Shown in pieces: positions 12,541-60,403 of a stretch of 64,000 nucleotides of DNA (position 1 is the stretch's first letter; each line of letters opens with the position of its first letter). The notes beneath the pieces are model-generated. The model was not told where the DNA came from. It ran no database searches and saw only the letters and a list, made by a program, of their open reading frames with translations. The position numbers were made by a program, and so were the translations under genes. This DNA comes from Candidatus Eremiobacterota bacterium (lineage in GTDB: Bacteria > Vulcanimicrobiota > CADAWZ01 > Ess09-12): assembly GCA_031082125.1 (NCBI GenBank), contig JAVHLM010000009.1, forward strand, positions 1 through 64,000, written 5' to 3'.

Positions 12541-14439
12541 ATGAAAAAACGCTGTCCCTTGAAGCCGTCACGAGGCCTTATCCTCATGACGGCAATCTTT
12601 CTCGTGCTCATCATTTTCGCCCTTGTCGTCGTCACTGTCTCCATGGTGCGCCAGAACATCCTGTTCACCAGGTACAGCCATTTCAAAACCAGGGCTTACT
12701 GCCTTGCCAAGGGGGCCGTCAACCTCGCGCTGAAAGAGATGGTAAGTGACACCGGCAGCTCATGGGACACCGACCACCTGGTAAGCAGTTCATTGAGCTC
12801 TTGGCCCGTAAATAATCCTCCCTCATCTGTCTACCAGCGCGATGAGGGAGCCGACAGGATCCAGGCATGGATTACCCAGAGCACGGTCCCCGGCATACTT
12901 TATATCCACGGCCGAGGCATAGTGAACTATGCGAGCCCCCAGAGGGTATGGCAGGATTATGTGGCCGTCGTGAAAAAGGACACGACGATGCCGGTGGTCT
13001 ATGCTACGAGAAACGTCGCCGGCGCTGACCCGGTATACTACCGCGAGGGTGGGGGAGTGTGGAAGCTGGTGGAGGACGTTCCTCTCCGGGTATACTGGAA
13101 GAACAACTTCACCAAGGAGATAAAAAACGAGAGCGCCAAGCCCACCGATTCGAACTATAACTATAAAATTGCTCCCCGTATAAGGGATCTATGCGCCGAC
13201 AACAAGGGCAACCTTTACGGGGTATGGCCCAAGATCGGCCCCGACGCCCTTTACCGCTATAATCCCTCCCGGGGATGGGAGTCCATAAAACCTCCGAGCC
13301 AGGTGTACTACAACAGCAAGGGCGAGCCCACCTGCAAGGAGACAAAGCCCGTGCAGTGGCTCGGCGATCTTGCCACTGACGGTGAAAAGTACCTCTATGC
13401 CCGCTGGAACAAGGGGGGCCCTGATACCATCTACCGCCTCGACCTCGAAAAGCTCAACGATCCTGAAAATCCCACGTGGGAGAATCTCCCCCCGGCACCG
13501 AACAGCCATTACCTCAACAGGGTGAATGAAAACGGCAGGCCCATCCTCAAGGAGCCCGACAATTTCGCCTGTAATCTCTCCAACCTCTGCGTTGACAAGA
13601 ACGGCAACCTCTATGCGCGCTATAACAGGGAAGGCATCGACACGGTGTACCGATTCCCCAATGGCTTCAAAGAGGTTCCCCAGGGAGCCTCACCCCCCCA
13701 GGTGGGCATAGATAAAGATTGGCAGTGCCTTCCCGCAGCGCCGAAAGAATACTACCGGTATAAAAACGACAATCCCGACGAGCCTTTTGTGAAATATACC
13801 CCTCCGGATCGTTACGCAGGCAATATCCAGGCTCTTTCAGTCACGCCCGAGGGAACACTTTACGGCCGCTATAACATAGCAGGTCCCGATACCCTTTACT
13901 GCTTTGAGGCAGGGCAGAAAACCGAAGAAGAGATTTACAATACGGAATGGAGCACCATAGAGCCGGTGAAATTCGACTACTACCAGGAAAACTGGGAAGA
14001 AATCGATGAGGACGATGGAGATGATACTGAAGACAATGAGGTCCCTGAGGAGCCCGAAGATCTTGATAACGACAGGAATGGCCTGAATGCCCATCTGAAC
14101 TTCAAGGCCACCTCAACGGACTCGGACGGCTTGCTCTACCTGCTCAGCTCTGTCGCCTACCGCCCCGACTCCATAAGGACTTTCAACGGAAGCTCCTACA
14201 GCGCGTCGAAGCCCGGCGATGCCTACGGCATCCTGAGGCCCATGCTCGCCAAGCGCTTCAAATACCTCGCAGATCCCGCCAACTCAGCGCAGAAAAAATT
14301 CCAGTGGTGTGATCTTGAAAAAGAGGACAAGGAGGGAAACCTCAGCAAGAAGCGCGAGCGGGTAATCCGTGAGATCTGCGGGGGAGGAAAGCCCGGCGAA
14401 GGGGGAAGAAGCGTCTATGTGGTCATCTCGAACCTTTAG
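12541..14439 (+). CDS. PilX-like membrane protein with propeller-like repeats
   Basis: A 632-residue protein. A short basic N-terminus precedes one long hydrophobic helix (about 12-37, GLILMTAIFLVLIIFALVVV) and a helical stalk (RAYCLAKGAVNLALKEM), as in PilX-type minor pilins. From about residue 215 there are five blade-like repeats built on D-x2-G-x-LY-x-RYN-x2-GPDTLYRF (for example GNLYARYNREGIDTVYRF). Four of them have a Trp/Pro segment after or between them. A very acidic stretch (WEEIDEDDGDDTEDNE) lies near 485. The repeats suggest a beta-propeller or WD-like ligand or surface module on the pilus. GAGGGGGGG precedes the ATG. It is first in a three-gene pilin operon and overlaps the next start. 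Confidence 0.8.
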   Translation: MKKRCPLKPSRGLILMTAIFLVLIIFALVVVTVSMVRQNILFTRYSHFKTRAYCLAKGAVNLALKEMVSDTGSSWDTDHLVSSSLSSWPVNNPPSSVYQRDEGADRIQAWITQSTVPGILYIHGRGIVNYASPQRVWQDYVAVVKKDTTMPVVYATRNVAGADPVYYREGGGVWKLVEDVPLRVYWKNNFTKEIKNESAKPTDSNYNYKIAPRIRDLCADNKGNLYGVWPKIGPDALYRYNPSRGWESIKPPSQVYYNSKGEPTCKETKPVQWLGDLATDGEKYLYARWNKGGPDTIYRLDLEKLNDPENPTWENLPPAPNSHYLNRVNENGRPILKEPDNFACNLSNLCVDKNGNLYARYNREGIDTVYRFPNGFKEVPQGASPPQVGIDKDWQCLPAAPKEYYRYKNDNPDEPFVKYTPPDRYAGNIQALSVTPEGTLYGRYNIAGPDTLYCFEAGQKTEEEIYNTEWSTIEPVKFDYYQENWEEIDEDDGDDTEDNEVPEEPEDLDNDRNGLNAHLNFKATSTDSDGLLYLLSSVAYRPDSIRTFNGSSYSASKPGDAYGILRPMLAKRFKYLADPANSAQKKFQWCDLEKEDKEGNLSKKRERVIREICGGGKPGEGGRSVYVVISNL

Positions 14440-14815
14440 CGGCTCTCCGGGGGGCTTCACCCTTGCCGAGCTGCTGGTGGCGCTTGCCATCCTCTCCATT
14501 GCAGCCCTTGGCCTTGTGGGGGCCCAGCTCTATTCCATGAAGGCCGGCGGGGGCAGCAGGATGCGCCACACGGCAAGCACCATCGCATACCGCATAATGG
14601 TCGAGACCGAGGATACCCTCAGGAAAGACTTCCTCACCAGCGTCACCACGGCGAAAACCGGTGTCCCCGGCCAGGAAGGCTTTCAATACCAGGTCCATGA
14701 CGCCCTTGAAGGAGGCGCCACTGATCTCAAGAAAATCACCGTCACCGTATACTGGGAAGAAGAAGGGGCGGAGCGTGAATATTCGGTCTTCACCTATATC
14801 TACAAGTATAACTAA
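14417..14815 (+). CDS. Type IV prepilin-like protein, PilV-like
   Basis: A 132-residue protein with a prepilin peptidase site: SPGG then FTLAELLVALAILSIAALGL. The +1 Phe and +5 Glu are both canonical. After cleavage and N-methylation it would form a helical pilin with a small beta domain (ITVTVYWEEEGAEREYSV). The ATG at 14417 lies 23 bases inside the preceding gene, with GGGGGAAG upstream; longer in-frame starts are less likely. Its place between PilX-like and PilW-like genes suggests a minor pilin that primes assembly. Confidence 0.82.
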   Translation: MWSSRTFSGSPGGFTLAELLVALAILSIAALGLVGAQLYSMKAGGGSRMRHTASTIAYRIMVETEDTLRKDFLTSVTTAKTGVPGQEGFQYQVHDALEGGATDLKKITVTVYWEEEGAEREYSVFTYIYKYN

Positions 14816-15380
14816 AGGCGGCAGGAACAGATGCCTCAGGGCAGCGGGATTGAGCGGCATCAGCCTCGTGGAGACGCTTGTCGTTGTAGGCCTTTTCTCA
14901 GCAATTCTTCTTATTATCATCCTTATGCAGAAAGGTGGATTCAATGCCTTCCAGAAGACGCAGGTCCATGGCGACACCTACCGGATGGCGATGCTTACCG
15001 CCGAGCACCTCAAGAGGGAACTCCAGTATGTGCAGGTGACCCAGTGCGACGTGCCGGGAAAACTGAAGTACAAAGCACCGAAATATGTGAACGGCCAGAT
15101 GTACGTCAATGCTTCAGGCTGTATCGAATGGGACACCGAGGTGACCCTTTCCCTGGAGCCTGACAACAAAGGCAGTATGACTCTCATAAGGTCACAGCAG
15201 GGTACTCCCCTGAGAAATCTGTGTTCCCTGGGAAACGGCGGAGAGATTCTCTTTTCGATGCCTCAGGATAAAATCCTTGAGGTATCGATCTCCGCCAGGG
15301 TGACCGATCCCACCGCCAAGATCAAGGAGAGCGACTACCGCCTCACCACGAAGTTCTACCTTCCCAACCAGGAAATCTAG
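14775..15380 (+). CDS. Type IV prepilin-like protein, PilW-like
   Basis: About 201 residues. The prepilin motif is LSG then ISLVETLVVVGLFSAILLI, with Glu at +5. A globular domain with two widely spaced cysteines follows (CDVPGKL, NASGCIEWD). The start is uncertain: the GTG at 14775 has GGGGCGGAG upstream and gives a 30-residue leader, while TTG codons closer to the motif are possible. It overlaps the PilV-like gene by 41 bases, so translation is likely coupled. It ends 8 bases before the stop codon of the convergent PilC-like gene. Confidence 0.75.
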   Translation: MNIRSSPISTSITKGGRNRCLRAAGLSGISLVETLVVVGLFSAILLIIILMQKGGFNAFQKTQVHGDTYRMAMLTAEHLKRELQYVQVTQCDVPGKLKYKAPKYVNGQMYVNASGCIEWDTEVTLSLEPDNKGSMTLIRSQQGTPLRNLCSLGNGGEILFSMPQDKILEVSISARVTDPTAKIKESDYRLTTKFYLPNQEI

Positions 15381-15388
15381 CCGGGGCG

Positions 15389-17119
15389 CTAAATATTCTT
15401 GATGAGCTGGAAGACAGGGAGAAAGGCCGCGAGGACCACGAAGCCCACGACGATCCCCAGACCGAAAAGCATGAGAGGCTCAATTACCGAGAGGAGGCTT
15501 GACGTGGCAGTGTCAACCTCAATCTCGGCAAGATCCGCGAACTTGTTCAGAAAGACCGAGACGTTCCCCACGTGCTCGCCTGCAGCCACCATATAGACCA
15601 TAGACCGAGGGAACACGGGAAAATTTCCCAGGGCCTCTTCGAGGCTCGAGCCGTGCTCCGAGAGCAGGGTGGCCATCCCCTCAATGGCTTGGTCTATCTC
15701 TGAATAGCCCATGGGAGTCTTTTTCAGTGTATCGAGCGCATAAAGAAGGCCCCCGCCCCCGCTCAGCATCACTGCAAGAGTCCTGGCGAGCCTCGCAAGT
15801 GCCGAGGCTAACATAAGGTGACCCACGACAGGGAGCCTTGAGAGAAGATCGACTATTCTCCTTCTTCCCGCAGGGTTGCCATATAAATAGGAGAGCACAA
15901 GAGCCGCCAGTGCCGCCATTACCAGCGATAAGGACACTGAAACGAGAGGCGTGGAGGTAATTGACAGAAGGGCTCTGGTAGCCCATGGGATCTCTGCCCC
16001 CTCAGCCGCGAAAAGAGGCATGAATTTCGGGAAAATATAGAACACCAGGAATGACACCATCAGTATCGATGAGACAAGCACAATAAGCGGGTACACAAGT
16101 GCCTGCACAAGATGGCACCTTTTCCTTTCCTCCTTGGCCAGATACTCCGCCATGGCTCTCATACCCTCAGGGAGGTTCCCCATCTCTTCATTCTGCCTCA
16201 CTACATTGATATAAAAAGAAGAAAAGGCATCGGGGATGAGCTCCATCGCCCTCCATAGGCGGTGGCCCGACTGGACGGAGGCCGAGATTTTATCGGAGAT
16301 CCGGTTCAGGTTTGCATCGGAAGTCTGGCTGAGCACTTTGAGGGCAGCCACATACCCCAGGCCCGCGTTGAACATCGTGGAGAACTGAAGGGTGAAAAGG
16401 CACAGGGAGCGGAGCGAGAGCTTTCTTATAATGCCCTGCTTCACGTGGTCCTGCTTTTTTGCCGGTCCTGACGATGGGCCCCGCGCCGCGCCGACCTTCG
16501 AGCCTTCCCCTGCCGGTGGTGCCGGCGAGGTTTCCCTGCCGGGGAGCTCTTTTCTTTGAATGCCGGCCTGCCTTGCTCCCGCGTCCTCCCTGCCGGTGAG
16601 CCCTGTCGCCCTTTCCGAAGCCTTTTTTGACTCCGCCTTTCTCCTCACGGCGATCTTCCTCAGCGACTCACGGATTCTCGGATCCAGACTCACCAGGAGC
16701 TCATAGTCCTCTTTTTTCAGCAGATAGGCCGTGATATCTTCTTCGGCCCTTACGGAAGCCATGCGGACCCTCTCATCGAGGTGAGCAATCTCGCCGAAAT
16801 AGCTGGGGGCCCTGAGGGTGGCGACCTTTATCTCACGGCCTTCCCCATCCTCCCTGAGGACCGACACCGACCCGGAGGTGAGGATATAAAAAGCCGAGCC
16901 GGCGCTTCCTGCCCTGATGACATAGCTTCCCTTGTCAAATGTTATCCTGATAAGCTTTTCCTCAAGGCTGAGGAGGACTCTCCCCGGGACTCCTTCAAGA
17001 AAGTCCAGTCTCTCAAGCATTTCCCTCAGATTTTCTTTTTTCACGGGCACCGCTCTTCTCCTTCGAGGCGCCTTCCCGGGGGACGCCGTTTCACCCTGGG
17101 GAACCTGCCCATCAGGCAT
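15389..17119 (-). CDS. PilC/GspF platform protein fused to a cyclic-nucleotide-binding domain
   Basis: A 576-residue fusion. Residues 39-155 form a CNB (cAMP-receptor-type) domain: GSAFYILTSGSVSVLRE, then a phosphate-binding cassette YFGEIAHLDERVRMAS that keeps the conserved Glu and Arg contacting a cyclic nucleotide. A Pro/Ala/Gly-rich linker (155-240) leads to two type II secretion F domains (about 240-365 and 445-570) with three strong membrane segments. PilC/GspF proteins sit in the inner membrane and couple the pilus ATPase to pilin extrusion; here nucleotide binding could gate assembly. The start at 17119 lacks a clear Shine-Dalgarno site, and an internal Met (34) is possible. No PilB, PilT or PilM gene is in the window. 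It is divergent from the RsbU-like gene and convergent with pilin cluster 1. Confidence 0.88.
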   Translation of the reverse strand: MPDGQVPQGETASPGKAPRRRRAVPVKKENLREMLERLDFLEGVPGRVLLSLEEKLIRITFDKGSYVIRAGSAGSAFYILTSGSVSVLREDGEGREIKVATLRAPSYFGEIAHLDERVRMASVRAEEDITAYLLKKEDYELLVSLDPRIRESLRKIAVRRKAESKKASERATGLTGREDAGARQAGIQRKELPGRETSPAPPAGEGSKVGAARGPSSGPAKKQDHVKQGIIRKLSLRSLCLFTLQFSTMFNAGLGYVAALKVLSQTSDANLNRISDKISASVQSGHRLWRAMELIPDAFSSFYINVVRQNEEMGNLPEGMRAMAEYLAKEERKRCHLVQALVYPLIVLVSSILMVSFLVFYIFPKFMPLFAAEGAEIPWATRALLSITSTPLVSVSLSLVMAALAALVLSYLYGNPAGRRRIVDLLSRLPVVGHLMLASALARLARTLAVMLSGGGGLLYALDTLKKTPMGYSEIDQAIEGMATLLSEHGSSLEEALGNFPVFPRSMVYMVAAGEHVGNVSVFLNKFADLAEIEVDTATSSLLSVIEPLMLFGLGIVVGFVVLAAFLPVFQLIKNI

Positions 17120-17171: not shown

Positions 17172-17200
17172 TTGACAAGAGGGCACCGCGGCAGTATAAT
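17172..17200 (+). promoter_or_regulatory. Perfect consensus sigma70 promoter of the partner-switch operon
   Basis: TTGACA (17172-17177), exactly 17 bases, then TATAAT (17195-17200): both hexamers are perfect. The expected transcription start is near 17207, upstream of the GAF-RsbU-RsbW gene. Confidence 0.85.
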
Positions 17201-17260
17201 CAGAAAGATCCGGGAATGCACAGAGAAATCCATAATCCCGGCGGCGCGCACGAGGAACGT

Positions 17261-19018
17261 ATGGAAGACCGCTATAAGTTTTACTATGCCATCGGGCGCC
17301 TTTTCAACTCGAGCCTCAATATAAACCTGCTCCTGGATATTGTGCTCTCCAGGATCGTCGAAGAGATGAATGTCGAGGCGGGATCTTTCTGGCTCTATGA
17401 CAACGAGCGCGAGATGGCCATCTGCAGCTCCTGCCAGAGCCCTGGAGGCAACGCCGTCAAAAGCTCATCGATCAGCGTGAACATCGGCGTCAAAGGTTAC
17501 TGCATGCGCAACAGGAAGTCCATCATCATCGAGGACACCTCGCAGGTCCCCTGGTTCAACAACGAGTTCGAAAAGAAGATGAAGCTCAAGACGCGCAACA
17601 TGCTCTGTATTCCCCTCATGCACAAGCAGGGCCTCATGGGGATCCTCGAGCTCATCAACAGCAGGCGCACCCCCATACCCTTCACGCAGGACGACATAGA
17701 TCTGCTGGAGCCCCTGGCGAACACGGCGGCCATGGCCCTTCACAGCGCCCACCTCTTCACCGGCATCGCCGAAAAGGACAGGATGAAGAAGGAGCTTGAG
17801 TTCGCATCGTTCCTGCAGTCGGCCATTCTCCCCATCAAGAAGATCGCCACGCCCTTCTTCGAGATGCGCGCCAAGCTCGTGCCCTCCAAGGAGCTGGGCG
17901 GCGATTTTTATGACTGGCGCGAGCTCGACGAGGACAAGTTCCTCTTCCTTATCGCCGATGTCTCGGGGAACGGGAACCCCGCCGCCATCTTCATGGCCAT
18001 CGTGAGGAGCGTCCTCTGGACAGTGAGCAATTTCTTCCACGATCCCCAGAAGATCTGTGAAAAAACCAACGAGTTCGTGCGAAAATCCACAAGGATCGAT
18101 ATGTTCGTCACGCTCCTTCTTCTCATAGCCGACATGAAGAAAAAGACCCTCAAGTATGTCTCGGCGGGCCACAATTCCGGCCTTCTCATCAGGAAGGACG
18201 GGGAGCGCATTCCCCTGAAGACCAAGGGCCTTCCGCTGGGAGTCATCGAAAAATCCACCTATGAGCAGAAAGAGGTCACCATCCAGGACGACGACCTCCT
18301 TATTCTTTACACCGACGGCATCACCGAGACCCTCAACGCCGACGAGGAGGAGTTCGGAGAGAAGCGCCTTGAGAAGCTCATCATGAAGTACAGGAACCTT
18401 GAGATCAAGGAGATATTGAACCTCATACTGAACAAGCTTGACAACTTCTCTGAGGGAAGCGAGATACAGGATGACCGCTGCATGCTCATGGTGAGGCTGA
18501 AGGAGGGCGCCGATGTCTCGAAGCTTGCCAGGTCCAAGCTCCGCTCCTTCAGCATGAATGTCTCTAACGAGATGAGCGAGGTGATAAAGATCCTTGAATA
18601 TATAGAGAAGCTGGCCCAGAGCGCCGGGTTCTCAAGGGAGGAGATCAACGACATCCTCATCTCCACCGAGGAGACCTGCGTGAATGTGATAAGATATGGG
18701 CTCCCCCGCAAGGAGGTAACCCACTTCGAGATTGAGTCCTTTGTGGAGGGCGACAAGCTCACCATCACGGTGAAAGATCGGGGGGTCCCCTTCGATCCTA
18801 CGAGATTCATCGATTCCGCATCCAACTATCCCTCCAAGCGCAGGGAGGCAGGCGGGTACGGCCTGCTGCTCATCAGGCAGCTCATGGACGAGATAAATTA
18901 TCAGTATGACGAGGAAAAGGGCAACACGACGACGCTCATCAAGATCAAGAAGAAGATAAGGCTCGAGCCCGAAATGCAGAAACTCATCAAGGTTGATGCC
19001 CTCAAGGGAGCAAAATGA
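17261..19018 (+). CDS. GAF-PP2C-HATPase fusion (RsbU plus RsbW in one protein)
   Basis: 585 residues. A GAF domain (about 15-170) precedes a SpoIIE/RsbU-type PP2C phosphatase with LGGDFYDW, IADVSGNGNPAAIFM, SAGHNSGLL, LYTDGITETLN and DDRCML. The last 140 residues are an RsbW-like GHKL ATPase/kinase (STEETCVNVIRYG, VKDRGVPFDP, GGYGLLLIRQL). In partner switching the kinase phosphorylates a STAS antagonist and the phosphatase reverses this. Here both activities sit on one chain, and a STAS protein is encoded two genes downstream. The ATG at 17261 has GAGGA upstream; an ATG at 17216 is also downstream of the promoter. It overlaps the next gene by 4 bases (ATGA). Confidence 0.9.
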   Translation: MEDRYKFYYAIGRLFNSSLNINLLLDIVLSRIVEEMNVEAGSFWLYDNEREMAICSSCQSPGGNAVKSSSISVNIGVKGYCMRNRKSIIIEDTSQVPWFNNEFEKKMKLKTRNMLCIPLMHKQGLMGILELINSRRTPIPFTQDDIDLLEPLANTAAMALHSAHLFTGIAEKDRMKKELEFASFLQSAILPIKKIATPFFEMRAKLVPSKELGGDFYDWRELDEDKFLFLIADVSGNGNPAAIFMAIVRSVLWTVSNFFHDPQKICEKTNEFVRKSTRIDMFVTLLLLIADMKKKTLKYVSAGHNSGLLIRKDGERIPLKTKGLPLGVIEKSTYEQKEVTIQDDDLLILYTDGITETLNADEEEFGEKRLEKLIMKYRNLEIKEILNLILNKLDNFSEGSEIQDDRCMLMVRLKEGADVSKLARSKLRSFSMNVSNEMSEVIKILEYIEKLAQSAGFSREEINDILISTEETCVNVIRYGLPRKEVTHFEIESFVEGDKLTITVKDRGVPFDPTRFIDSASNYPSKRREAGGYGLLLIRQLMDEINYQYDEEKGNTTTLIKIKKKIRLEPEMQKLIKVDALKGAK

Positions 19019-20538
19019 ATACGGCGAAAGCACTTCATGTGATGCTTGTTATCGGGGACAGCGCCCTCAGGGAGCACTGCGCGGCGCAGCTCTCCCTTGA
19101 GCCCACGCTCCACCTCACCTCCCTCGAGAACAGCGATGAGGCTTTGCGGGAGCTTGCCGCCATGAGCTATGACATGGTCATCATCGAGGGGGGGGGCAGG
19201 ACCGGGATACCTGGTGACTTCATCAGGAAGATAAGGACAGACTACCCTGCCCTTGGAATAATCCTCATCCTGGACGGCAGCGAGGACATGAAAACCATGC
19301 TGCCTGAGCTTGAAGAGCTGAGGGTGAACCTGGCGACAAGGGCTGAGCTCCTGGAGTTTCCCGCCCGGTTCCCCCATGTCATTGCCAACATCAAGCTCAG
19401 GAAAAAAGAGAGAATCGAGTGCGAGGAGCGCATCAGGACAATCTACGAGCGCATGAAAAGCATCTTTGACACTCTCGGGGAGCGCCATGTCGAATCCATT
19501 GCCATCATTGACTCAAGCTACAGGGTTCATTTTCACAACAGGCGCGCCGCCGAAGGGAAGGAAGCATCAAGGGATATGCCCTGCTTCAGGCTCTATTACG
19601 AGCGGTCAACGCCCTGCGAATTCTGCCTCCTTAAAAAGGTCCTCGAGAGCGACAGCCTCATGAGCACCGAGATCTCCACCGAGGAGGGCAGGGAATACTT
19701 CCTCATGATGATGCCCTTTGTTGACAGCGACGGCGAGAGGAAGGTCCTCAGGATCATGAGGGACATCACTGAGTGGAGAACCCTGAACAGGCAGATGCAG
19801 CGCCAGGTTGACGAATTCTTCAGCATCTTCAACTGCCTGGACCTCGGGATCTATATAGTCGATCCCGAGACTTACACGATACTGGCGGCAAACACCCAGG
19901 CCATCAAGCTTCTGGGCGAGAATCCCGTTGACAAGAAGTGTTTCGAGGTGCTCCTCAAAGGCCACTCGGCGCCTTGCTCACACTGCGATAACGCCCTCAT
20001 CTCACGGGGGATCATCCAGTCGGGGACACTGCCCTGGGAGTTCAAATCGGCAGCCCATGACCGCTGGTACCGCTGCATCAGCAAGATAATCTCATGGCCG
20101 GGGAAAAAATTCGCCAAGATGGAAGTGATAATGGACATCACGGAATCAATGCGCACCGAGCGTGAAATCAACACCCTCAGGGTCTTTAAAGATAAAATAA
20201 GGGCACTCCCCCACCTTGCCCTCATGGAGTTTGACAGGAAGGGCAAAATCATATATGCTAACGAGGCCTCGGCGGCGATGCTGGGAAACTGTTCCGAGGA
20301 ACTCATGGGCCTCTTCATATGGCAGCTCCCCGATGATTCGTGCAAGGAGGCCATCTACCGCACCATCGAAAGACCGGGAGCGACGGACAGGGAGGCACTG
20401 GAGTGCACCCTCAACGGGAAGGAGAAAAAGGTGGAAGTCCATCTTAACTTCATCCTGCACAGGGATGTGAAAGGGAGCCTCATCGACGGGTCGGTCTTCA
20501 TCATTGAAAAGCCCAGAAAGATCACCAGGTTCTATTGA
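19015..20538 (+). CDS. Pseudo-receiver plus multi-PAS signalling protein
   Basis: 507 residues. Residues 7-125 resemble a receiver domain, but the phosphorylation site reads YDMVIIEGG, with Glu58 in place of Asp. Three PAS-like domains follow (about 150-255, 268-375 and 395-500). Two of them carry the pattern C-x-n-PC-x2-C (MPCFRLYYERSTPCEFC and KKCFEVLLKG with APCSHC), which could bind metal, a cluster or heme. There is no kinase, cyclase or DNA-binding output, so it is probably an adaptor that acts through protein contacts. Translation is coupled to the upstream phosphatase/kinase by the ATGA overlap, which suggests it is a sensory partner of that module. Confidence 0.8.
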   Translation: MNTAKALHVMLVIGDSALREHCAAQLSLEPTLHLTSLENSDEALRELAAMSYDMVIIEGGGRTGIPGDFIRKIRTDYPALGIILILDGSEDMKTMLPELEELRVNLATRAELLEFPARFPHVIANIKLRKKERIECEERIRTIYERMKSIFDTLGERHVESIAIIDSSYRVHFHNRRAAEGKEASRDMPCFRLYYERSTPCEFCLLKKVLESDSLMSTEISTEEGREYFLMMMPFVDSDGERKVLRIMRDITEWRTLNRQMQRQVDEFFSIFNCLDLGIYIVDPETYTILAANTQAIKLLGENPVDKKCFEVLLKGHSAPCSHCDNALISRGIIQSGTLPWEFKSAAHDRWYRCISKIISWPGKKFAKMEVIMDITESMRTEREINTLRVFKDKIRALPHLALMEFDRKGKIIYANEASAAMLGNCSEELMGLFIWQLPDDSCKEAIYRTIERPGATDREALECTLNGKEKKVEVHLNFILHRDVKGSLIDGSVFIIEKPRKITRFY

Positions 20539-20561
20539 TTCACCGCACAGGAGGTGTTTTT

Positions 20562-20927
20562 ATGACAGCAATAATCAAGGAATCATCAATAAATCCAGAC
20601 TATACCATACTGAAGCTCAAGCACAAGCTTGACACCGTTTCAGCCGAGGTGTTTGAGACGCAGATAAACGAGCTCATCACCAAAGGGAAAACCAATATCA
20701 TCATAGATTTCGAGGAATCAAACTACCTGAGCAGCATGGGCCTCAGGGTCCTTTTCTCGGCATCACGCCTCCTCAATGAGCAGAACCGGCGCCTGATCCT
20801 CATCAACGTGGGTCCCACGGTGATGAAAGTCATCAATATAGCCGATTGTGCCGATCTCTTTGAGATCTTCGAGAGCGAGGAGAAAGCCCTTGCAAGTCCC
20901 GGATCCAACCCGACATGCAAAGGATGA
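20562..20927 (+). CDS. STAS-domain anti-sigma factor antagonist (RsbV/SpoIIAA type)
   Basis: A 121-residue protein with the STAS fold. The phosphorylation loop reads NYLSSMGLRVLFSASR, matching the family's S-S-x-GLR-x-L, with the conserved Ser present. It is the expected substrate of the HATPase kinase and the PP2C phosphatase encoded at 17261-19018. The ATG at 20562 has an AGGAGG site; a longer in-frame start is less likely. The last 15 residues after the fold are unstructured. It lies 23 bases after the pseudo-receiver gene and 16 bases before the DUF47 gene, so it belongs to the same operon. No sigma factor or other target is present in the window. Confidence 0.92.
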   Translation: MTAIIKESSINPDYTILKLKHKLDTVSAEVFETQINELITKGKTNIIIDFEESNYLSSMGLRVLFSASRLLNEQNRRLILINVGPTVMKVINIADCADLFEIFESEEKALASPGSNPTCKG

Positions 20928-20943
20928 CAGGGAGGACTGCCAT

Positions 20944-21573
20944 ATGAAGCTTCAACTTTTCCCCAAGAATGTAAAGTTCTTCGATCTCTTCAAGGAGGAG
21001 AGCGACCTCGTTGAGAAGGCCGCTGAGGCCCTTAACGGGCTTTTCTCAAGCTTTGAGAATATCGAGGAGAAATGCAGCACCATCAACAGGCTTGAAAACG
21101 AGTGCCACACGCTGGTGAGAAGGATCAACAAGGAGCTTTACCGTAACTTTATCACCCCCCTGGACCGCGAAGACATCCACTCTATCAACCGCAGGCACCA
21201 CGAGGTGGCTTTCATAATCAAGGCCATCTCGGTGAGGATAGGCCTTTTCAACCTCCCTTCCCTCACGGCCCCCTCGGTGGAGATCATCTCGATCTTCAAC
21301 AGGATGATCAAGGAAATTAAATCCCTGATGGACGGCCTTGAGAAGATCAAGGACATTGATGAGAACATGAAGCGCATCGAGGAGATGAAAAAGCAGGCTG
21401 AAACGCTGCTTCGGCTCGCTTATGCCGAGCTCTACGAAGGCTCCCGCAAGACGCCGGAAGATGTGCTCTATATCCTCCAGTGGTCGCAGATTTATGATCT
21501 CATCCAGCAGGCCCTTGAGTCCACCGAACGGCTTGCCACTGTCATAGAGGGCATCACGCTGAAGAATGGCTGA
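20944..21573 (+). CDS. DUF47/PhoU-like protein
   Basis: A 209-residue, nearly all-helical, charged protein of the DUF47 (PhoU-like, Pit accessory) family. Hallmarks are the opening LFPKNVKFFDLFKEESDLV, the repeated E-x3-D/H metal-binding helices (INRLENECHTLVRRI; DREDIHSINRRHHEVAF) and a second three-helix half. Such proteins usually sit beside Pit transporters and are thought to modulate phosphate uptake. Here the gene lies inside a regulatory operon and the pit gene is elsewhere. The ATG has AGGGAGG upstream, and the 3' end overlaps the radical SAM gene by 8 bases. Confidence 0.88.
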   Translation: MKLQLFPKNVKFFDLFKEESDLVEKAAEALNGLFSSFENIEEKCSTINRLENECHTLVRRINKELYRNFITPLDREDIHSINRRHHEVAFIIKAISVRIGLFNLPSLTAPSVEIISIFNRMIKEIKSLMDGLEKIKDIDENMKRIEEMKKQAETLLRLAYAELYEGSRKTPEDVLYILQWSQIYDLIQQALESTERLATVIEGITLKNG

Positions 21574-52815: not shown

Positions 52816-52892
52816 AAAAGTGGATTGATCTACCTTGTTTCCTCATGGCTTTAATCCTTACGGAGTCCAGGCTCACAAGGAGGGGGATGGCA

Positions 52893-54725
52893 ATGAAAAA
52901 ATTATTGAAGAAAAAGGGCCTCGCCCTCGCTTCGATAATGCTGGTGATGCTGGTTCTCTCCCTGCTGGCCGTCTCGGTCGTAGGCCTTACCACCAACCAG
53001 TACAGGTACTCTCTGAAAAAACAGAATGATACCCTCGCCATGCAGGCGGCCCTGACGGGCCTCGATGCCGCGGAGAAAGCACTGGACAGGGAACTGACCT
53101 CGCCCTCCGAGGTGAAAAACTGGGACCTGCTTGCTCCGGGATCGTCCCTGGTGCCCCGCACCCGGGTGGGTGAAAAAAGCCTCTACTACAAGATCGATAT
53201 CATGGAATCCTCACCCGACACCTGCTCTGTCATAACGACGTCCACGCTTGAAAACTCCGGCGGGAGCATTGATAAGCAAAAGAGACTGAAAGCCACCTTC
53301 AAGAAAAACTGCTTCCTCTATGCCGCTTACGGCTGCGCGAAAGACGATGTGGGGGTGGCCTTAAAAGATGATTCCATCATCAGGGGCGACGTGGGGAGCA
53401 GCAGGACTTCAGGAAAAGCCGTGGCGATAGGACAGGATACCTCGCCCGTGACGGCCGACGTCACCAGTGTGTCCGTCAGCACCACTACGCATGTGCAGCT
53501 CCAGCAGAATAGTCCCACAAGCAATACCCACGTGAATGTAAACCAGACAACCACCACCTTTGTCAACTCTTCCGATGGCGATCTTCTGGCTTCAAATCTC
53601 CAGCAGAACTCCACCTCAATGTCCACTCCCTATAAGCCTCCATCGGCCTCCTCAATGCTTTCTATGAGCGTCTCGCAGAGCATGACTGTCGAAGAATTTG
53701 TTCCCCCCATAAAGATAAGCCAGAACACCTCAATTTCGGTCACTTCACCTTTAAGTGTCTTTGCCAATGCGATCACCACTTATTCCCTCAGCGTCCTTAA
53801 TAAACCCAATAAGAAGGAGCTTTCACTGAAGACCGATGAGCCTGCGGCAGCGCTCACCCGGCAGATCCTGGCACCCCAGGATTATTTTGGAAACAGCGCG
53901 GAGGAAATAAAAGGTGACATGGCATCCAGGGGCGGCCATGGGAGTTCATCTTCCTCAGGCTGGTCCGGTCCTCCCATACAATATCCGCCGCAACCTGCCT
54001 CCACTCCGTCCCCTGCCTCCACTCCGACTCCTTCCCCCAGCTTTACTCCCACTTCCAGCGATATGCTGTACACCACCTCGCAGCACTGGTCCATCAGCAA
54101 CGACCAGTCCAGCAGCGAAGACCAGTCCAAGATAGTCGGCGATATCTATCTCACCCCGGCCGGCCAGGTGGAAAGGCTGATTGGCGGCAGCATCAACTCG
54201 CTGGAAGGGAGCGAAAACAAAACTTACCTCGACAAGCTCACCGGCAAAACGATCCCTGTTCCCGCCTATCTGGAGCCAGCGGGCTCCTCGACCACCTCAG
54301 CCATTCCCGATACTCTCACCGGCGGCACCTATATATACGACACCTTTGAAGCCACAGGAAGAACCATTACCATCGACGCAAGCAAGGGGCCCATCATCCT
54401 TTACGTGAGGCAGTCATTCATCATGGACAACTCAAAAATCAACTTCACCACATCCGGCACAGCCTGCGATCCCAGGAACCTCATCGTCTATGCAAGCCCA
54501 AGCTGCTCTGTATCAATAAAGAACGGCTCAAGATGCTCCCTGCTGATGGCGGCGCCTTCCACCGATATTGATGTGCAGGGCGGTGTGAAGGGCAGCTCCC
54601 TGGTGGTAGGCTCGCTTCTCGGCAACAAGGTGAACTGCAGCGCCTCGGTAATTGAATACCCCAAAGGGCGCCTCAAGGATATGAGAGACCGGGCTCTCCT
54701 GGTGTCCTGGGAAGAGCTCCCGTAG
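52893..54725 (+). CDS. PilX-like surface protein, paralogue 1
   Basis: 610 residues. Basic KKKG, one hydrophobic helix (ALASIMLVMLVLSLLAVSVV) and a conserved stalk (TTNQYRYSLKKQ, QAALTGLDAAEKALDR) match PilX-type pilin-like proteins. A conserved domain to about 160 (FKKNCFLYAAYG) is followed by a Ser/Thr/Asn/Pro-rich middle ending in TPSPASTPTPSPSFTPTSS. A C-terminal beta-helix-like domain follows (TITIDASKGPIILYVR, CDPRNLIVY, IEYPKGRLKDMRDRALL). The ATG at 52893 keeps the same nine-base distance from AAGGAGG as both paralogues; starts at 52887 or 52845 are less likely. It is first in the five-gene pilin cluster 2. Confidence 0.85.
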   Translation: MKKLLKKKGLALASIMLVMLVLSLLAVSVVGLTTNQYRYSLKKQNDTLAMQAALTGLDAAEKALDRELTSPSEVKNWDLLAPGSSLVPRTRVGEKSLYYKIDIMESSPDTCSVITTSTLENSGGSIDKQKRLKATFKKNCFLYAAYGCAKDDVGVALKDDSIIRGDVGSSRTSGKAVAIGQDTSPVTADVTSVSVSTTTHVQLQQNSPTSNTHVNVNQTTTTFVNSSDGDLLASNLQQNSTSMSTPYKPPSASSMLSMSVSQSMTVEEFVPPIKISQNTSISVTSPLSVFANAITTYSLSVLNKPNKKELSLKTDEPAAALTRQILAPQDYFGNSAEEIKGDMASRGGHGSSSSSGWSGPPIQYPPQPASTPSPASTPTPSPSFTPTSSDMLYTTSQHWSISNDQSSSEDQSKIVGDIYLTPAGQVERLIGGSINSLEGSENKTYLDKLTGKTIPVPAYLEPAGSSTTSAIPDTLTGGTYIYDTFEATGRTITIDASKGPIILYVRQSFIMDNSKINFTTSGTACDPRNLIVYASPSCSVSIKNGSRCSLLMAAPSTDIDVQGGVKGSSLVVGSLLGNKVNCSASVIEYPKGRLKDMRDRALLVSWEELP

Positions 54726-54763
54726 GTCATGGAGTTATAAACCCCACAAGGAGGGAGACGAGT

Positions 54764-56752
54764 ATGCAGAAATTCTGGAAGAAAAAGGGCCTCGCCCTCG
54801 CGTCGATCATGGTGGTGATGCTGGTTCTCTCCCTGCTGGCTGTCTCGGTCGTAGGCCTTACCACCAACCAGTACAGGTACTCCCTGAAAAAACAGAATGA
54901 AACCCTCACCATGCAGGCGGCCCTGGCAGGACTCGACGCTGCGGAGAAAGCACTGGACAGGGACCCATTATTGCCCGACAAAGTGAACAACTGGGACCAG
55001 CTCGCTCCCAATTCCAATCTGGTGGGCTGGACCAGGGTGGGAGAGAAAAACCTCTCCTACAGGGTGGATCTCGTGGACTCCACTGCCGACACCTGCACTG
55101 TCATCTCAACAGCCAGGCTTGAGGGCCCCCGCGGGAGCATTGACAAGGAAAAGAAAGTAAAGGCCACCTTCAAGAAGAACTGCTTCCTCTACGCCGCTTA
55201 CGGCAACGGAAAAAATGCCCCGGGCGTAACGGCAGAATATAATTCCAAGATAATCGGCGACGTGGGAAGCAGCAGGGCCGATACCGCCAATGCAGGCAAG
55301 AAAGTGAATGCCGTCACCATAGGGCAGCTGGCCTCCGATGAGACGAGCAATACCGTCACCCAGGTGGCCGTTACCACCAATACGCAGGTGCAGCTCCAGC
55401 AGAGTCCTTCCACAAGCACCCCCCAGGTGAGCGTGAATCAGATGACGAGCACCGTGGTGAACTCCTCGGGAGGAGGCTCCTCGGCCTCGCAGATGAGCGA
55501 GAACTCAACGCAGTTTTCAACCTCCTCCAAGCCTCCCCCCTCGGCGTCGCCCTCGGCCCTTCTCTCAATAAGCCTTTCGCAGAGCATGACGCTCAATAAT
55601 TTCGTTCCTCCCATCAAGATAAGCCAGAGCACCTCAATCAATATCTCGAATACCCTGAATCCCATCTCCTTTGCCACCACTTCTTACTCCCTCAGCCAGA
55701 ACAAGAGAGAGCTCGACCTGGAAGCCCGCTCTTCCAGGTGCCATTCATCTTCCAGCAAGCCGAACAGCAATAGCGTGAGCGTCTCCTATTCCTGCCTTTC
55801 TGTCTCAGTGACCTTCATGAAACCTCCCGCTTATTACTCGCCGTTGTCCTATTATTGGGCGCCGCCGCCAAAGCCCCAGGTGACGATACCCCAGGTAAAA
55901 CCGCCACAGGTGACGACGCCACAGGTGACAATGCCCCAGGTAAAACCGCCCCAGGTGACGACGCCACAGGTGACATCACCACAGGTGACATCGCCACAGG
56001 TGACATCGCCGCAGGCGACTGCGCCAGAAGGCGAAACGGAGCCGCAATCCTCCATTTCGCCTTCGACAGGCCCATCCGCTTATCTGACCCAACAAACGCC
56101 ATTCGATTATTCTGCATGGTATACCACCATGCAGTCCTGGTCCATCAACGGAGAGTCCGCCGCTATGACCGACACGTCCCAGATCATAGGTGAAATCTAT
56201 GTCACCCCCGACGGCGAGGTGAAACAGGAGGCTTCCGAAGGGCACCTGGGGACTATCAACAGGACCTATGTTGAAAAGCTCACAAGCTGGATTATTCCAG
56301 TTCCCAGGTATCAGGAGCCTGATGGCCTCGCTGTCTCGTCTGCCGTTCCCGGCACCATAAAGAGCGGCAGCTATGTTTATGATACCTTCGAGGTCACAGG
56401 GAGCACCATCACCATCGACGCAAGCAAGGGGCCCATCATCCTCTACGTGAGAAGTAAATTTGCCCTGAGCGGCTCGACAATAAACTTCGCCTCCGGCACA
56501 CCCTGCGATCCCAGGAATCTCATTGTGTACTGCAGTTCATACTGCTCTGTGAGCATCAAGGATCAATCAAAGTGCTCCCTTCTCCTGGCGGCATCTTCCG
56601 CCGATATTGACGTGCAGGGTAAATCCTACGTGATAGGCTCACTGCTGGGCAACAAGGTGAAATGCACCGCTTCGGTGATTGAATACCCCAAGGGGCGCCT
56701 GAAGGATATGAGAGACCGGGCTCTCCTGGTGGCTTGGGAAGAGCTCCCGTAG
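54764..56752 (+). CDS. PilX-like surface protein, paralogue 2
   Basis: 662 residues with the same head and tail as paralogue 1, nearly identical in DNA over the first 150 and last 200 bases. The middle differs: a Ser-rich stretch with QLQQSPSTSTPQVSVNQM, a region with cysteines (SRCHSSSSKPNS, SYSCLSVSV), then ten PQVTx pentapeptide units before the C-terminal domain (SGSYVYDTFEVTG, CSVSIKDQSKCSLLLA). AAGGAGG lies nine bases before the ATG. The gene follows paralogue 1 by 38 bases with no separate promoter seen. Confidence 0.88.
   Translation: MQKFWKKKGLALASIMVVMLVLSLLAVSVVGLTTNQYRYSLKKQNETLTMQAALAGLDAAEKALDRDPLLPDKVNNWDQLAPNSNLVGWTRVGEKNLSYRVDLVDSTADTCTVISTARLEGPRGSIDKEKKVKATFKKNCFLYAAYGNGKNAPGVTAEYNSKIIGDVGSSRADTANAGKKVNAVTIGQLASDETSNTVTQVAVTTNTQVQLQQSPSTSTPQVSVNQMTSTVVNSSGGGSSASQMSENSTQFSTSSKPPPSASPSALLSISLSQSMTLNNFVPPIKISQSTSINISNTLNPISFATTSYSLSQNKRELDLEARSSRCHSSSSKPNSNSVSVSYSCLSVSVTFMKPPAYYSPLSYYWAPPPKPQVTIPQVKPPQVTTPQVTMPQVKPPQVTTPQVTSPQVTSPQVTSPQATAPEGETEPQSSISPSTGPSAYLTQQTPFDYSAWYTTMQSWSINGESAAMTDTSQIIGEIYVTPDGEVKQEASEGHLGTINRTYVEKLTSWIIPVPRYQEPDGLAVSSAVPGTIKSGSYVYDTFEVTGSTITIDASKGPIILYVRSKFALSGSTINFASGTPCDPRNLIVYCSSYCSVSIKDQSKCSLLLAASSADIDVQGKSYVIGSLLGNKVKCTASVIEYPKGRLKDMRDRALLVAWEELP
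55874..56023 (+). repeat. Ten tandem 15-bp units coding PQVTx
   Basis: Units of CC(A/C/G)CAGGT(G/A)A(C/A)(A/G)NN code PQVT(I/T/M/S) or PQVKP, ending in PQATA. The period keeps the frame, so copy number can change without loss of the protein. A proline at every fifth residue would give a stiff, extended spacer. Confidence 0.9.
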
Positions 56753-56773
56753 GTTGTTGAAGCCCCCCATATA

Positions 56774-56787
56774 TTACGATACTGTAA
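56774..56787. promoter_or_regulatory. TTAC-N6-GTAA dyad, copy 2
   Basis: TTACGATACTGTAA, with flanking CCCCATATA, corresponds to the dyad at 52663-52676 and lies about 110 bases upstream of the promoter copy at 56898. Confidence 0.45.
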
Positions 56788-56897
56788 CATATGGCGATAA
56801 TGGCATAATTATTGCGTTGCAGGCTTTCTGAGCCGATCAATCCCCTTCCTTAAAGATCTTCCGGCCATGAGAGCACCTTGAAGAGGCTCATGATTCC

Positions 56898-56926
56898 TTT
56901 ACTTTTCGGGGATTTTATGTGATAAT
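56898..56926 (+). promoter_or_regulatory. Promoter of pilin cluster 2, copy 2
   Basis: TTTACT (56898-56903), 17 bases, GATAAT (56921-56926), matching the promoter at 52787-52815. It lies upstream of paralogue 3, so the downstream half of the cluster can be expressed separately. Confidence 0.65.
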
Positions 56927-57006
56927 AATAGTGGATTACCTTACCTTGGCTGTTTTATGCTTTGAAACCTTCAGAGAGTCAAAAGCTCGCAAGGAGGATG
57001 ATGGGT

Positions 57007-59118
57007 ATGCAGAAATTCTGGAAGAAAAAGGGCCTCGCCCTCGCGTCGATAATGCTGGTGATGCTGGTTCTCTCCCTGCTGGCCGTTTCGGTCGTTGGCC
57101 TTACCACCAACCAGTACAGGTACTCCCTGAAGAAGCAGAGTGATACCCTCACCATGCAGGCGGCCCTGGCAGGACTCAACGCCGCGGAGAAAGAGCTGGA
57201 CAGGGAAGCAACCTGGCCCCTCTCAGTGAGAAACTGGGACCAGCTCGCTCCCAATTCCAATCTGGTGGGCTGGACCAGGGTGGGAGAGAAAAACCTCTCC
57301 TACAGGGTGGATCTCGTGGACTCCACTGCCGACACCTGCACTGTCATCTCAACAGCCAGGCTTGAGGGCCCCGGCGGCAGCATTGACAAGGAAAAGAAAG
57401 TGAAAGCCACCTTCAAGAAGAACTGTTTCCTCTACGCCGCTTACGGCAATACGAAAAACGACGCGGGAGTGACGGCGCTCTACAATTCAAAGATTATCGG
57501 TGACATAGGCAGCAGCAGAACCAGTGCTGCCGCTACCGGAAAAGTGGATTCCGTAATCATAGGGCACCAGGCTGAAGAAGAATCCGAGGTCACGCATGTC
57601 GCGGTGAACACCAGCACGATGGTGAATATGCTGCAGGAAAGCCCTTCAAGCGCTACCCAGGTGAATGTGAGCCAAACGACCAGCACGACAATAAACTCTT
57701 CAGGCGGAGGTTTTCTGGCTCAGCAGAACCAGACTTACACCTCCCTCAGCAAGCCCCCCCCTTCGTCTTCGTCGCCTTCGGCTATGCTTTCTCTGAGTCT
57801 CTCCACGAGCATGACCACCCAGAATTTTGTACCGCCCATTACCATAAATCAAAGCACCTCGCTGAACGTGTCATCTCCCTTGAATCCCTTCTCCTATGCC
57901 AATACCACCTATTCGCTCAATTTCAACAAGAAAGAGGTCCCGCTGAAGGCTGATGAGCCCGCCATGCTATCTCGTGGCGGCCACGGCGGCGGCTGGGGCG
58001 GCGGCGGCGGCGGCGGCGGCGGATTGATAATTTATGTCCAGTTTAATGTGATGTCTCCTAATAAATACAATTACAATAGCTCCAGCAACAGCAGCAATTA
58101 CAATTACAACTACAATAACAACAATGTTAATGTAAACCTCAGTGTAAATAGCAGCAACAATTACCAGTCACAGAGCCAGTCACAGAGCCAGACTACTGTG
58201 GTCTCCACACCGCACACACCCACTGTGACGCCTACACAACAGACGCCTTTTGCGGTATCTACACCGCACACACCCACTGTGACGCCTACGCAGCAGACGC
58301 CTATAGGGCAGACGCCTACGCAGCAGACGCCCATAGGGCAGACGCCTGCTGCGACGCCTGCGCCGCAGAGCTCTCTCAGCAGCACAGATCAGGGCGATCT
58401 TTTATATTCAAGCTCTTCCGCTACTCCTTCCACTTCATCCTCGTCTAATTACCTGCCGCCGAACAAGCCTTTCAGCTACACCGCCTGGTACAACACCATG
58501 CAGACATGGTCCATCAACAATGGATCATTTTTGGATGACACATCCCAGATTATAGGCGACATCTATGTCACTCCCCATGGCAATGTGGAAATGATAGCCA
58601 CCGAGGGGCACTACGGGGCGATAAATAACATCTATGTCGATAAACTCACAAACTGGAAAGTTCCCGTCCCTTCCTACAATGAGCCTGTGGGCCTCACGGC
58701 CACATCAGCCATTGCCGACACCATTACAGGAGGCACCTACCTCTATGACAGCTTCGACGCCACAGGAAGAACCATTACCATAGATGCAAGCAAAGGCCCC
58801 GTCATCCTCTACGTGAGGCAGAGATTTTCCCTGAGCGGCTCAACAATAAACTTCGCCTCAGGTGCACCCTGCGATCCCAGGAATCTCATCGTGTACTGCA
58901 GTTCATACTGCTCTGTGAGCATAAAGGATGAATCAAAGTGCTCCCTTCTGCTGGCGGCGCCTTCCACCGATATTGACGTGCAGGGTAAATCCTACGTGGT
59001 GGGCTCACTGCTGGGCAACAAGGTAAAATGCCATGCCTCGGTGATTGAATACCCCAAAGGGCGCCTGAAGGACATGAGAGACAGAGCGCTCCTGGTAGCC
59101 TGGGAGGAGCTCCCGTAA
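57007..59118 (+). CDS. PilX-like surface protein, paralogue 3
   Basis: 703 residues with the same head (MQKFWKKKGLALASIM) and C-terminal domain as the other two. The variable middle is the longest: a Ser/Thr-rich part, a glycine run coded by (GGC)8, an Asn/Tyr/Ser-rich stretch (NYNYNYNNNNVNVNLSVN), a QSQSQSQSQ tract and TPTQQTP repeats. The C-terminal domain again has TITIDASKGPVILYVR and two Cys-containing strands (VYCSSYCSVSIKD). AAGGAGG lies nine bases before the ATG at 57007. The frame can be read from 56962, but without a site. PilV-like and PilW-like genes follow. Confidence 0.88.
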   Translation: MQKFWKKKGLALASIMLVMLVLSLLAVSVVGLTTNQYRYSLKKQSDTLTMQAALAGLNAAEKELDREATWPLSVRNWDQLAPNSNLVGWTRVGEKNLSYRVDLVDSTADTCTVISTARLEGPGGSIDKEKKVKATFKKNCFLYAAYGNTKNDAGVTALYNSKIIGDIGSSRTSAAATGKVDSVIIGHQAEEESEVTHVAVNTSTMVNMLQESPSSATQVNVSQTTSTTINSSGGGFLAQQNQTYTSLSKPPPSSSSPSAMLSLSLSTSMTTQNFVPPITINQSTSLNVSSPLNPFSYANTTYSLNFNKKEVPLKADEPAMLSRGGHGGGWGGGGGGGGGLIIYVQFNVMSPNKYNYNSSSNSSNYNYNYNNNNVNVNLSVNSSNNYQSQSQSQSQTTVVSTPHTPTVTPTQQTPFAVSTPHTPTVTPTQQTPIGQTPTQQTPIGQTPAATPAPQSSLSSTDQGDLLYSSSSATPSTSSSSNYLPPNKPFSYTAWYNTMQTWSINNGSFLDDTSQIIGDIYVTPHGNVEMIATEGHYGAINNIYVDKLTNWKVPVPSYNEPVGLTATSAIADTITGGTYLYDSFDATGRTITIDASKGPVILYVRQRFSLSGSTINFASGAPCDPRNLIVYCSSYCSVSIKDESKCSLLLAAPSTDIDVQGKSYVVGSLLGNKVKCHASVIEYPKGRLKDMRDRALLVAWEELP
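57997..58023 (+). repeat. (GGC)8 trinucleotide run in paralogue 3
   Basis: Eight in-frame GGC codons plus GGA code a polyglycine stretch, preceded by further Gly-rich codons. Slippage would change length in whole residues. Confidence 0.9.
58207..58350 (+). repeat. TPHTPTVTPTQQTP and IGQTPTQQTP repeats in paralogue 3
   Basis: A unit of about 54 bases (CCGCACACACCCACTGTGAC onward) occurs twice, near 58210 and 58264. It is followed by two copies of a 30-base unit coding TQQTPIGQTP. All periods are multiples of three. Confidence 0.8.
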
Positions 59119-59157
59119 TTTTCTCCTGTCACCCTGGAAGGGTACGGGCCTGCGAAG

Positions 59158-59742
59158 GTGAATAGTGTAAAGGTGAGCAGCATAACCTCTCCTTCGAGAA
59201 GGGCCGGCTGGCCTCTCCCTTCAAGCGGGAAAGGCTTGTCTCTGATTGAGCTTATCATTGCCATGGTGCTCCTCCTCCTCATCCTCTTCTCGGTGGGAAT
59301 CCTTATACCCTATTCCCAGGTGAGAATGCGCAACTCCGCTTACAGGGACTCGGCCACGACACTCGCCGAGAATTTGATGGAGAGGATAAGGACAACGCGG
59401 TCCACCAACATTCCTTCAACGGCCGTCACTTACGACGGCCTTGCCTTTCCCTCACCGACACCTTCACCGGTCACCGTGGGAGGAGTGCAGGTTTTCCCGC
59501 CCACCCCTTACCCCAGGACCACCTATCAGGACTTTTCAGGCGCTCAGGTCAAGCCCGGCGGCCCCACCCAGGAACTTAGAAGCTCTGTGGAATTCATTTA
59601 TGTGGTCCGCTCCGATCCGGTCAGCTATACTCCCCTCACCCTTATAGACATCTCTGTTTACTGGGATGAAACATCGGGTGCATCAGGAGGCCACCGTCGC
59701 AAAAACCATATCACAGTCTCTTCAATGTTTTTGAGGAGGTAG
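59158..59742 (+). CDS. Type IV prepilin-like protein, PilV-like
   Basis: About 194 residues. The prepilin motif GKG then LSLIELIIAMVLLLLILFSVG has Glu at +5. The mature part has ATTLAENLMERIRTTRS after the helix, then a Pro-rich loop (FPSPTPSPVTVGGVQVFPP) and LIDISVYWDE. The start is uncertain: a GTG at 59158 follows GCGAAG, and other GTG codons lie just downstream (59173). The leader of about 27 residues is long but similar to the one in cluster 1. It ends two bases before the PilW-like gene, which suggests coupled translation. Likely a minor pilin of the same system as the PilX paralogues. Confidence 0.82.
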   Translation: MNSVKVSSITSPSRRAGWPLPSSGKGLSLIELIIAMVLLLLILFSVGILIPYSQVRMRNSAYRDSATTLAENLMERIRTTRSTNIPSTAVTYDGLAFPSPTPSPVTVGGVQVFPPTPYPRTTYQDFSGAQVKPGGPTQELRSSVEFIYVVRSDPVSYTPLTLIDISVYWDETSGASGGHRRKNHITVSSMFLRR

Positions 59743-59743
59743 C

Positions 59744-60403
59744 ATGGCGCTCAGCAAAGCGAAAAAACCAGGTATCACCCTCTCGGAGCTCATCGTGGCG
59801 ATGGCGCTCCTGACAGTGATACTCGCTCTATGCACCAACCTCTTTGTTTCCTCATTCCACAGGCTCCAGATGACAAACGCCATGCAGGACGCCCAGAATA
59901 ATGCCATAGTGGGGCTTGACCGCTTCACACGGGATTTCCGCGAGACTACCAAGCAAAGCGTGGTTTATTATAAAGACTCGAGCCACCAGTACATATACTT
60001 CCCCTCGCCCCGGGACAGGAACGGTGTCTTTCACCAGGCGCCTAACGGCTTTATTGAGTGGTCAACATGGATCGCCTATTACATGATAAGGGATCCCAAT
60101 TTTGCCTCCCAGGGCCAGCAGGGTGAGCCCACCTACCTCCTGGCACGCAGGCAGCAGGACATCCTGGACAAAAAGCTCACCAACACGCCGGCATTTGACT
60201 GGAACTCCATAAACGGCGCCGAGATAGCGGCGAAAAACGCAGTGCAGTTCAACATCACTTCAGTTCAGCTTTCAGAATACATGGTCACCTACGAAGTCTC
60301 GCTCCATACGAAAAGGGAATATAAAGGCAAGGCTTATACCTATCAGGCCGAGAGGTTCATATCCATCCGGGACCGGCTCCAGCCGATTTACCTGGACTAT
60401 TGA
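59744..60403 (+). CDS. Type IV prepilin-like protein, PilW-like
   Basis: 219 residues. The leader MALSKAKKPG precedes ITLSELIVAMALLTVILAL, with the peptidase site after Gly and Glu at +5. A helical stalk (NNAIVGLDRFTRDFRETT) is followed by a beta-rich globular part with VSLHTKREYKGKAYTY. It corresponds in position to the PilW-like gene of cluster 1. GAGGAGG precedes the ATG directly after the PilV-like stop. No cysteine pair is seen in the head domain, unlike the cluster 1 counterpart. Closes pilin cluster 2. Confidence 0.88.
   Translation: MALSKAKKPGITLSELIVAMALLTVILALCTNLFVSSFHRLQMTNAMQDAQNNAIVGLDRFTRDFRETTKQSVVYYKDSSHQYIYFPSPRDRNGVFHQAPNGFIEWSTWIAYYMIRDPNFASQGQQGEPTYLLARRQQDILDKKLTNTPAFDWNSINGAEIAAKNAVQFNITSVQLSEYMVTYEVSLHTKREYKGKAYTYQAERFISIRDRLQPIYLDY

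Follow-up and report, generated by a model that had tools for sequence, protein, structure and literature searches.

The PilC/GspF platform of pilus machines is a stand-alone protein in its canonical form, as a first-pass annotation of the DNA described here had rightly held. In the machine, PilC has the ATPase on one side and the pilins on the other, and nucleotide messengers are known to exert control through transcription or on the ATPase (PMC11656802). A sensor borne on the platform itself would thus add a new control point. Tip assembly has been described in Myxococcus xanthus, where PilX and the propeller protein PilY1 build a priming and tip complex (PMC7541494).

The window (the whole 64,000-nucleotide stretch of DNA that was analysed) is part of contig C9 in a draft genome of 7.43 Mb in 69 contigs. 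On its minus strand, the open reading frame at 15389-17119 holds a cyclic-nucleotide-binding (CNB) domain, a linker and PilC/GspF in a single frame, and three prepilin genes converge on it, with 8 bp between the stop codons. The features are as follows:

15389..17119, minus strand: CNB-PilC fusion gene, 576 aa from ATG 17119 or 553 aa from the probable start GTG 17050
16604..17038, minus strand: CNB domain, residues 28-172, ending in a long C-terminal helix at 147-172 (Pfam PF00027, AlphaFold2 model, fold matches)
16415..16603, minus strand: linker predicted to be flexible, residues 173-235 (pLDDT below 50 over most of 177-227)
15392..16414, minus strand: PilC/GspF platform, residues 236-576, with two T2SSF domains and three membrane segments (PF00482 twice, PDB 3jc8, hydropathy)
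12541..14439, plus strand: PilX/GspK-like prepilin of 632 aa, without Glu5 and with a putative beta-propeller-like body (sister-cassette homologues, kelch matches, structure model)
14369..14815, plus strand: minor prepilin, PilV/GspI-like, motif GGFTLAELL (PF07963 at 28 bits; TIGR02523 and TIGR01707 below cut-off)
14661..15380, plus strand: minor prepilin, PilW/GspJ-like, motif SGISLVETL (motif, gene order, sister-cassette homologues)

The two halves of the fusion are well supported by profile searches. Pfam cNMP_binding (PF00027) matches residues 59-140 with 66 bits against a cut-off of 27.5, and T2SSF (PF00482) matches twice, with a total of 139.1 bits against 25.2. Three hydrophobic segments were found by hydropathy (residues 335-372, 383-415 and 539-576), and each of the 18 near-invariant PilC residues in alignment A1 could be assigned to a position in the window protein; this alignment contains one stray 3-residue row, with no effect beyond the list of fully invariant columns, and the structure model does not draw on the alignment. 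The NCBIfam GspF profile aligns to the protein from profile position 47 onward only, the canonical N-terminal module being missing (as also in alignment A2), and the equivalog cut-offs are not reached (GspF 241.9 against 424; PilC 218.8 against 700). The protein thus reads, from its sequence, as a divergent paralogue within the PilC/GspF family and not as an equivalog. Pfam found no helix-turn-helix DNA-binding domain of the CRP/FNR type; the C-terminal part is PilC. The ATG at 17119 lacks a good ribosome-binding site, AAGGAG lies 7 nt before GTG 17050 (residue 24), and the latter appears the more likely start.

An AlphaFold2 model built from 36 aligned sequences of the same genome and its relatives (mean pLDDT 85.6, pTM 0.62), in which residues 1-17 were left unmodelled, agrees with this division. 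The pLDDT is mostly 85-97 over the CNB (28-172) and mostly above 85 over PilC (236-576), and it is mostly below 50 at residues 177-227. The linker of about 60 residues is therefore predicted to be flexible, and the orientation of the CNB relative to PilC is undefined in the model. The platform part aligns with PilC from the Myxococcus pilus model (PDB 3jc8; phmmer E 3.7e-44, Foldseek E 1.7e-11), and the CNB part resembles the CNBs of PKG, PKA, CRP and HCN in phmmer and Foldseek searches. Pfam and AlphaFold2 therefore bear out the architecture proposed in the first-pass annotation, of a CNB, a linker and two T2SSF domains in one frame.

The same annotation named a sequencing error joining two genes as what would refute the fusion. 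The assembly is a draft in 69 contigs, but an independent CNB-PilC of 538 aa with identical domain order and 39% identity to the window copy lies on another contig (C20), and third-position GC is even across the CNB, linker and PilC parts (0.65, 0.68 and 0.66). The reading that an assembly or sequencing error fused two neighbouring genes was rejected on these grounds as vanishingly improbable.

The three prepilins, with a PilX-like member that lacks Glu5, identify the neighbouring genes as a minor-pilin tip cassette of the PilV/W/X type, the PilX and PilW assignments being based on motif and gene order and not on family models. The PilV/GspI-like prepilin carries the N-methylation motif, and its listed start (GTG 14369) overlaps the preceding gene. 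No Pfam or NCBIfam family matched the PilW/GspJ-like prepilin, the true start of which is probably downstream of 14661. The large prepilin comprises a pilin helix followed by a run of short strands. Its model is modest (mean pLDDT 67.8) with mostly propellers among the Foldseek matches, and kelch matches were found in its homologues; together, these matches support a predicted beta-propeller body. It is a probable pilus tip protein, and by analogy with M. xanthus, PilX and a PilY1-like propeller seem to be merged here in one polypeptide. Elsewhere in the window, at 52845-60400 on the plus strand, is a further minor-pilin tip cluster: three tandem PilX/GspK-like proteins of 620-720 aa with nearly identical N-termini, then two prepilins, and no PilC. 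Divergent from CNB-PilC, at 17172-21573 on the plus strand, are genes for a GAF-SpoIIE-HATPase protein, for a PAS protein and for a small protein that by eye resembles STAS. This set is preceded by a 12/12 sigma-70 consensus at 17172-17200, and the true start of its first gene is probably well 3' of the listed GTG 16781.

The four-gene cassette occurs three times in the genome, with CNB-PilC in the window (C9) and on C20 and with a bare PilC on C1; only the C20 cassette has an extra gene between the pilins. In the C1 cassette, the gene for a tandem-PilZ protein of 261 aa ends 25 bp upstream of the bare PilC on the same strand; as judged by eye, the protein keeps the RxxxR motif and deviates in the second c-di-GMP motif. 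Cassettes were also found in two other families, namely in G048 (contig C124) and G028 (C200 and C434), where the PilCs of C124 and C434 have the ordinary N-terminal module and that of C200 is bare. In a quick tree with long branches, the three cassette PilCs of the present genome form one clade (SH-aLRT 97), and both fused CNBs cluster with two PilC-less CNB proteins of the same genome (support 85). Taken together, these sequence relationships indicate that a CNB replaced the canonical N-terminal module in this lineage; the C1 PilC would then either never have had a CNB or have since lost it. The first-pass annotation was right about the fusion itself and overlooked both this replacement and the membership in a repeated cassette.

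The domain-architecture search for CNB plus T2SSF that had been proposed there returned the two copies in this genome and none elsewhere among the 149 genomes of the phylum, with about 9 candidates scored per genome. A single scan of genome contigs recovered ordinary PilCs and no CNB-PilC, and tblastn against plasmids gave no match covering 80% of the query. Other long PilCs of this genome and its relatives (up to 928 aa) were considered as sensor fusions and set aside; no CNB was seen by reading, and most of their extensions are either a normal N-terminal module or low-complexity sequence rich in Pro. No open-licence paper was found that joins a CNB domain with GspF/T2SSF, which is weak evidence of novelty, and the sole open-licence paper naming both a CNB domain and PilC treats them separately.

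The phosphate-binding cassette of the window CNB is YFGEIAHLDERVRMASV. It retains each of the key residues Gly, Glu, Arg and Ala, a complete set shared by 25 of the genome's 35 CNB domains, and to this extent the ligand residues are intact, as previously described. However, the residue after the cassette Arg, a position for Ser/Thr or another small residue, is Met in the window copy, and it is Ser or Thr in 20 of the 25 CNBs with an intact site. The C20 copy has lost the Glu and Ala of the site and keeps two of the four residues. In the alignment with its PKG match (CNB-B of PKG-I), the window Met stands opposite Thr317, a cGMP-selective residue, and the window Ala opposite Arg297, a cGMP contact. 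Because Met and Ala align to these two residues, the domain, if it binds anything, would be likelier to bind cAMP than cGMP.

Besides its 11 class III cyclases, the genome has 29 PilC/GspF platform loci and 38 matches to T2SSE ATPases; PilC candidate numbers are similar or higher in several relatives (the f12 genomes and G028). The window cassette contains no PilB/PilT gene, the closest T2SSE gene on the contig is 157 kb away, and for 22 of the 29 PilCs there is no ATPase gene within 6 kb. This orphan position suggests that CNB-PilC uses shared ATPases. One further PilC locus, at L065 7687-9009 (contig C12), is an ORF that opens as a prepilin (QGFTLVEIL) and continues into repetitive linker sequence and a single T2SSF domain; it is apparently a PilC that has been broken or fused.

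Beyond the fusion, cyclic-nucleotide domains are associated with pilus ATPases in this phylum, given three lines of evidence. Four of 29 CNB genes (fused ones aside) have a gene for a PilB/PilT ATPase or for PilC no more than 1 kb away, against 0.69 expected (P=0.005), in a crude test made after the pattern had been noticed. Four PilT ATPase genes (L070, L073, L074 and L075) are directly followed by CNB-GAF or CNB-GAF-like genes, two of them checked with Pfam, and the pair recurs in three other families (L139, L140, L141 and L143). It is likely a cyclic-nucleotide input to pilus retraction; two of the four PilT-linked CNBs are degenerate at the ligand residues. Finally, on contig C5 (L060 7098-16714), genes for a CHASE2-class III cyclase, CNB-HD, PilB, a radical-SAM protein, DUF72 and PilC stand in a row on one strand, interspersed with other gene(s), a possible cyclase-to-pilus signalling locus.

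The sequences themselves show that the two domains are fused, that the fusion exists in two copies, that the cassette is repeated, that one N-terminal domain has been swapped for another and that the ligand site is mostly intact. The explanation we tentatively prefer, with a confidence somewhat short of even, is that CNB-PilC is a dedicated platform for the minor-pilin tip cassette, whose tethered CNB, in place of the N-terminal module, senses a cyclic nucleotide. The canonical cytoplasmic N-terminal module of about 60-70 residues has given way to the tethered CNB, which from its place at the PilC N-terminus would be cytoplasmic and close to the ATPase dock. The three minor pilins may form an adhesive priming or tip complex that shares ATPases and the core machine encoded elsewhere in the genome. 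A cyclic mononucleotide, cAMP sooner than cGMP, would then alter the dimerisation of the CNB or its contact with the ATPase or stator, and binding would raise or lower the use of this cassette's tip. Several observations favour this explanation: the two CNB-PilCs share one cassette type; the platforms group together, as do the fused CNBs with stand-alone CNBs of the genome; homologous cassettes elsewhere carry an ordinary module or a bare PilC; the C1 bare PilC has the tandem PilZ gene immediately upstream; the four ligand residues and the 18 PilC residues are in place; and the genome offers cyclases, the C5 row, CNB-ATPase proximity and the PilT pairs. The earlier proposal of direct gating survives in that a cyclic-nucleotide input is plausible, given the mostly intact site, the cyclases and the CNB-ATPase neighbours, but the disordered linker, the Met and the site loss on C20 count against gating in the strict sense. 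Since the linker is flexible over about 60 residues, a rigid gate is unlikely and a tethered switch, acting by ligand-dependent dimerisation, occlusion or recruitment, would be more plausible.

Several of the same observations weigh against this explanation. The Met in place of Ser/Thr, the half-lost site of the C20 copy and the two degenerate PilT-linked CNB-GAFs are also what would be expected under the main rival, in which the CNB serves for dimerisation or docking independently of any ligand and clusters platform subunits or recruits a partner, its nucleotide binding vestigial or lost. The long CRP-like C-terminal helix (147-172) with its flexible linker fits that role, but all four ligand residues are present in the window copy, in a genome with 11 cyclases, and we regard the rival as possible, if on the doubtful side. 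The altered cassette residue would likewise suit a platform that responds to a nucleoside or another small molecule in place of cAMP or cGMP. Trypanosome PKA regulatory subunits, described as cAMP-independent and in one case crystallised with guanosine, are among the closest Foldseek matches of the CNB; these presumably have substituted ligand residues, whereas the window CNB retains Arg and Ala, and this variant is unlikely.

The long disordered linker, unfavourable to allosteric gating, the distance of more than 150 kb to the closest ATPase gene on the contig, the restriction of the fusion to one genome of the 149 searched in the phylum and the crude, post hoc nature of the enrichment test also speak against the tethered sensor. 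Restriction to one genome, a third copy without CNB and 22 of 29 PilCs remote from ATPase genes could instead point to a lineage-specific, little-used or decaying duplicate without regulatory role. Yet the frame is open, with coding composition and the near-invariant PilC residues retained, and the cassette is present in three copies here and in other families, which makes such decay very unlikely. A further reading, which we consider fairly unlikely, is that the platform of each tip cassette is wired to its own messenger, with CNB fused in two and tandem PilZ beside the third, such that the levels of cyclic mononucleotide and c-di-GMP choose the displayed tip. A sensor on a separable tethered domain would be directly testable, and CNB-PilC offers a handle on why the genome retains 29 platforms, 22 without a nearby ATPase gene.

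Compared with known PilC/GspF platforms (Pfam T2SSF; PDB 3jc8), the window protein is alike in its two T2SSF domains, three membrane segments and near-invariant residues, and differs in having a CNB instead of the canonical N-terminal module and in scoring far under the GspF equivalog cut-off. Its CNB shares the fold and most of the phosphate-binding cassette with those of PKG, PKA, CRP and HCN, but is tethered to a pilus platform and has Met after the cassette Arg. The PilY1/minor-pilin clusters of M. xanthus likewise comprise several alternative minor-pilin sets per genome, with a propeller at the tip and a PilX/GspK without Glu5; in the present genome, the PilX-like pilin itself appears to contain the propeller, and every set comes with a PilC of its own (PMC7541494). 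MshE with c-di-GMP and the PilB-PilZ-FimX system also bring a nucleotide messenger to the pilus machine post-translationally, but with c-di-GMP acting at the ATPase, whereas the candidate here is a mononucleotide sensor on the platform (PMC7096442, PMC8389850, PMC11656802). The Pil-Chp/CyaB/Vfr pathway similarly ties cAMP to type IV pili; however, it acts transcriptionally through a CRP homologue and not, as proposed for CNB-PilC, through a domain of the machine (PMC11656802).
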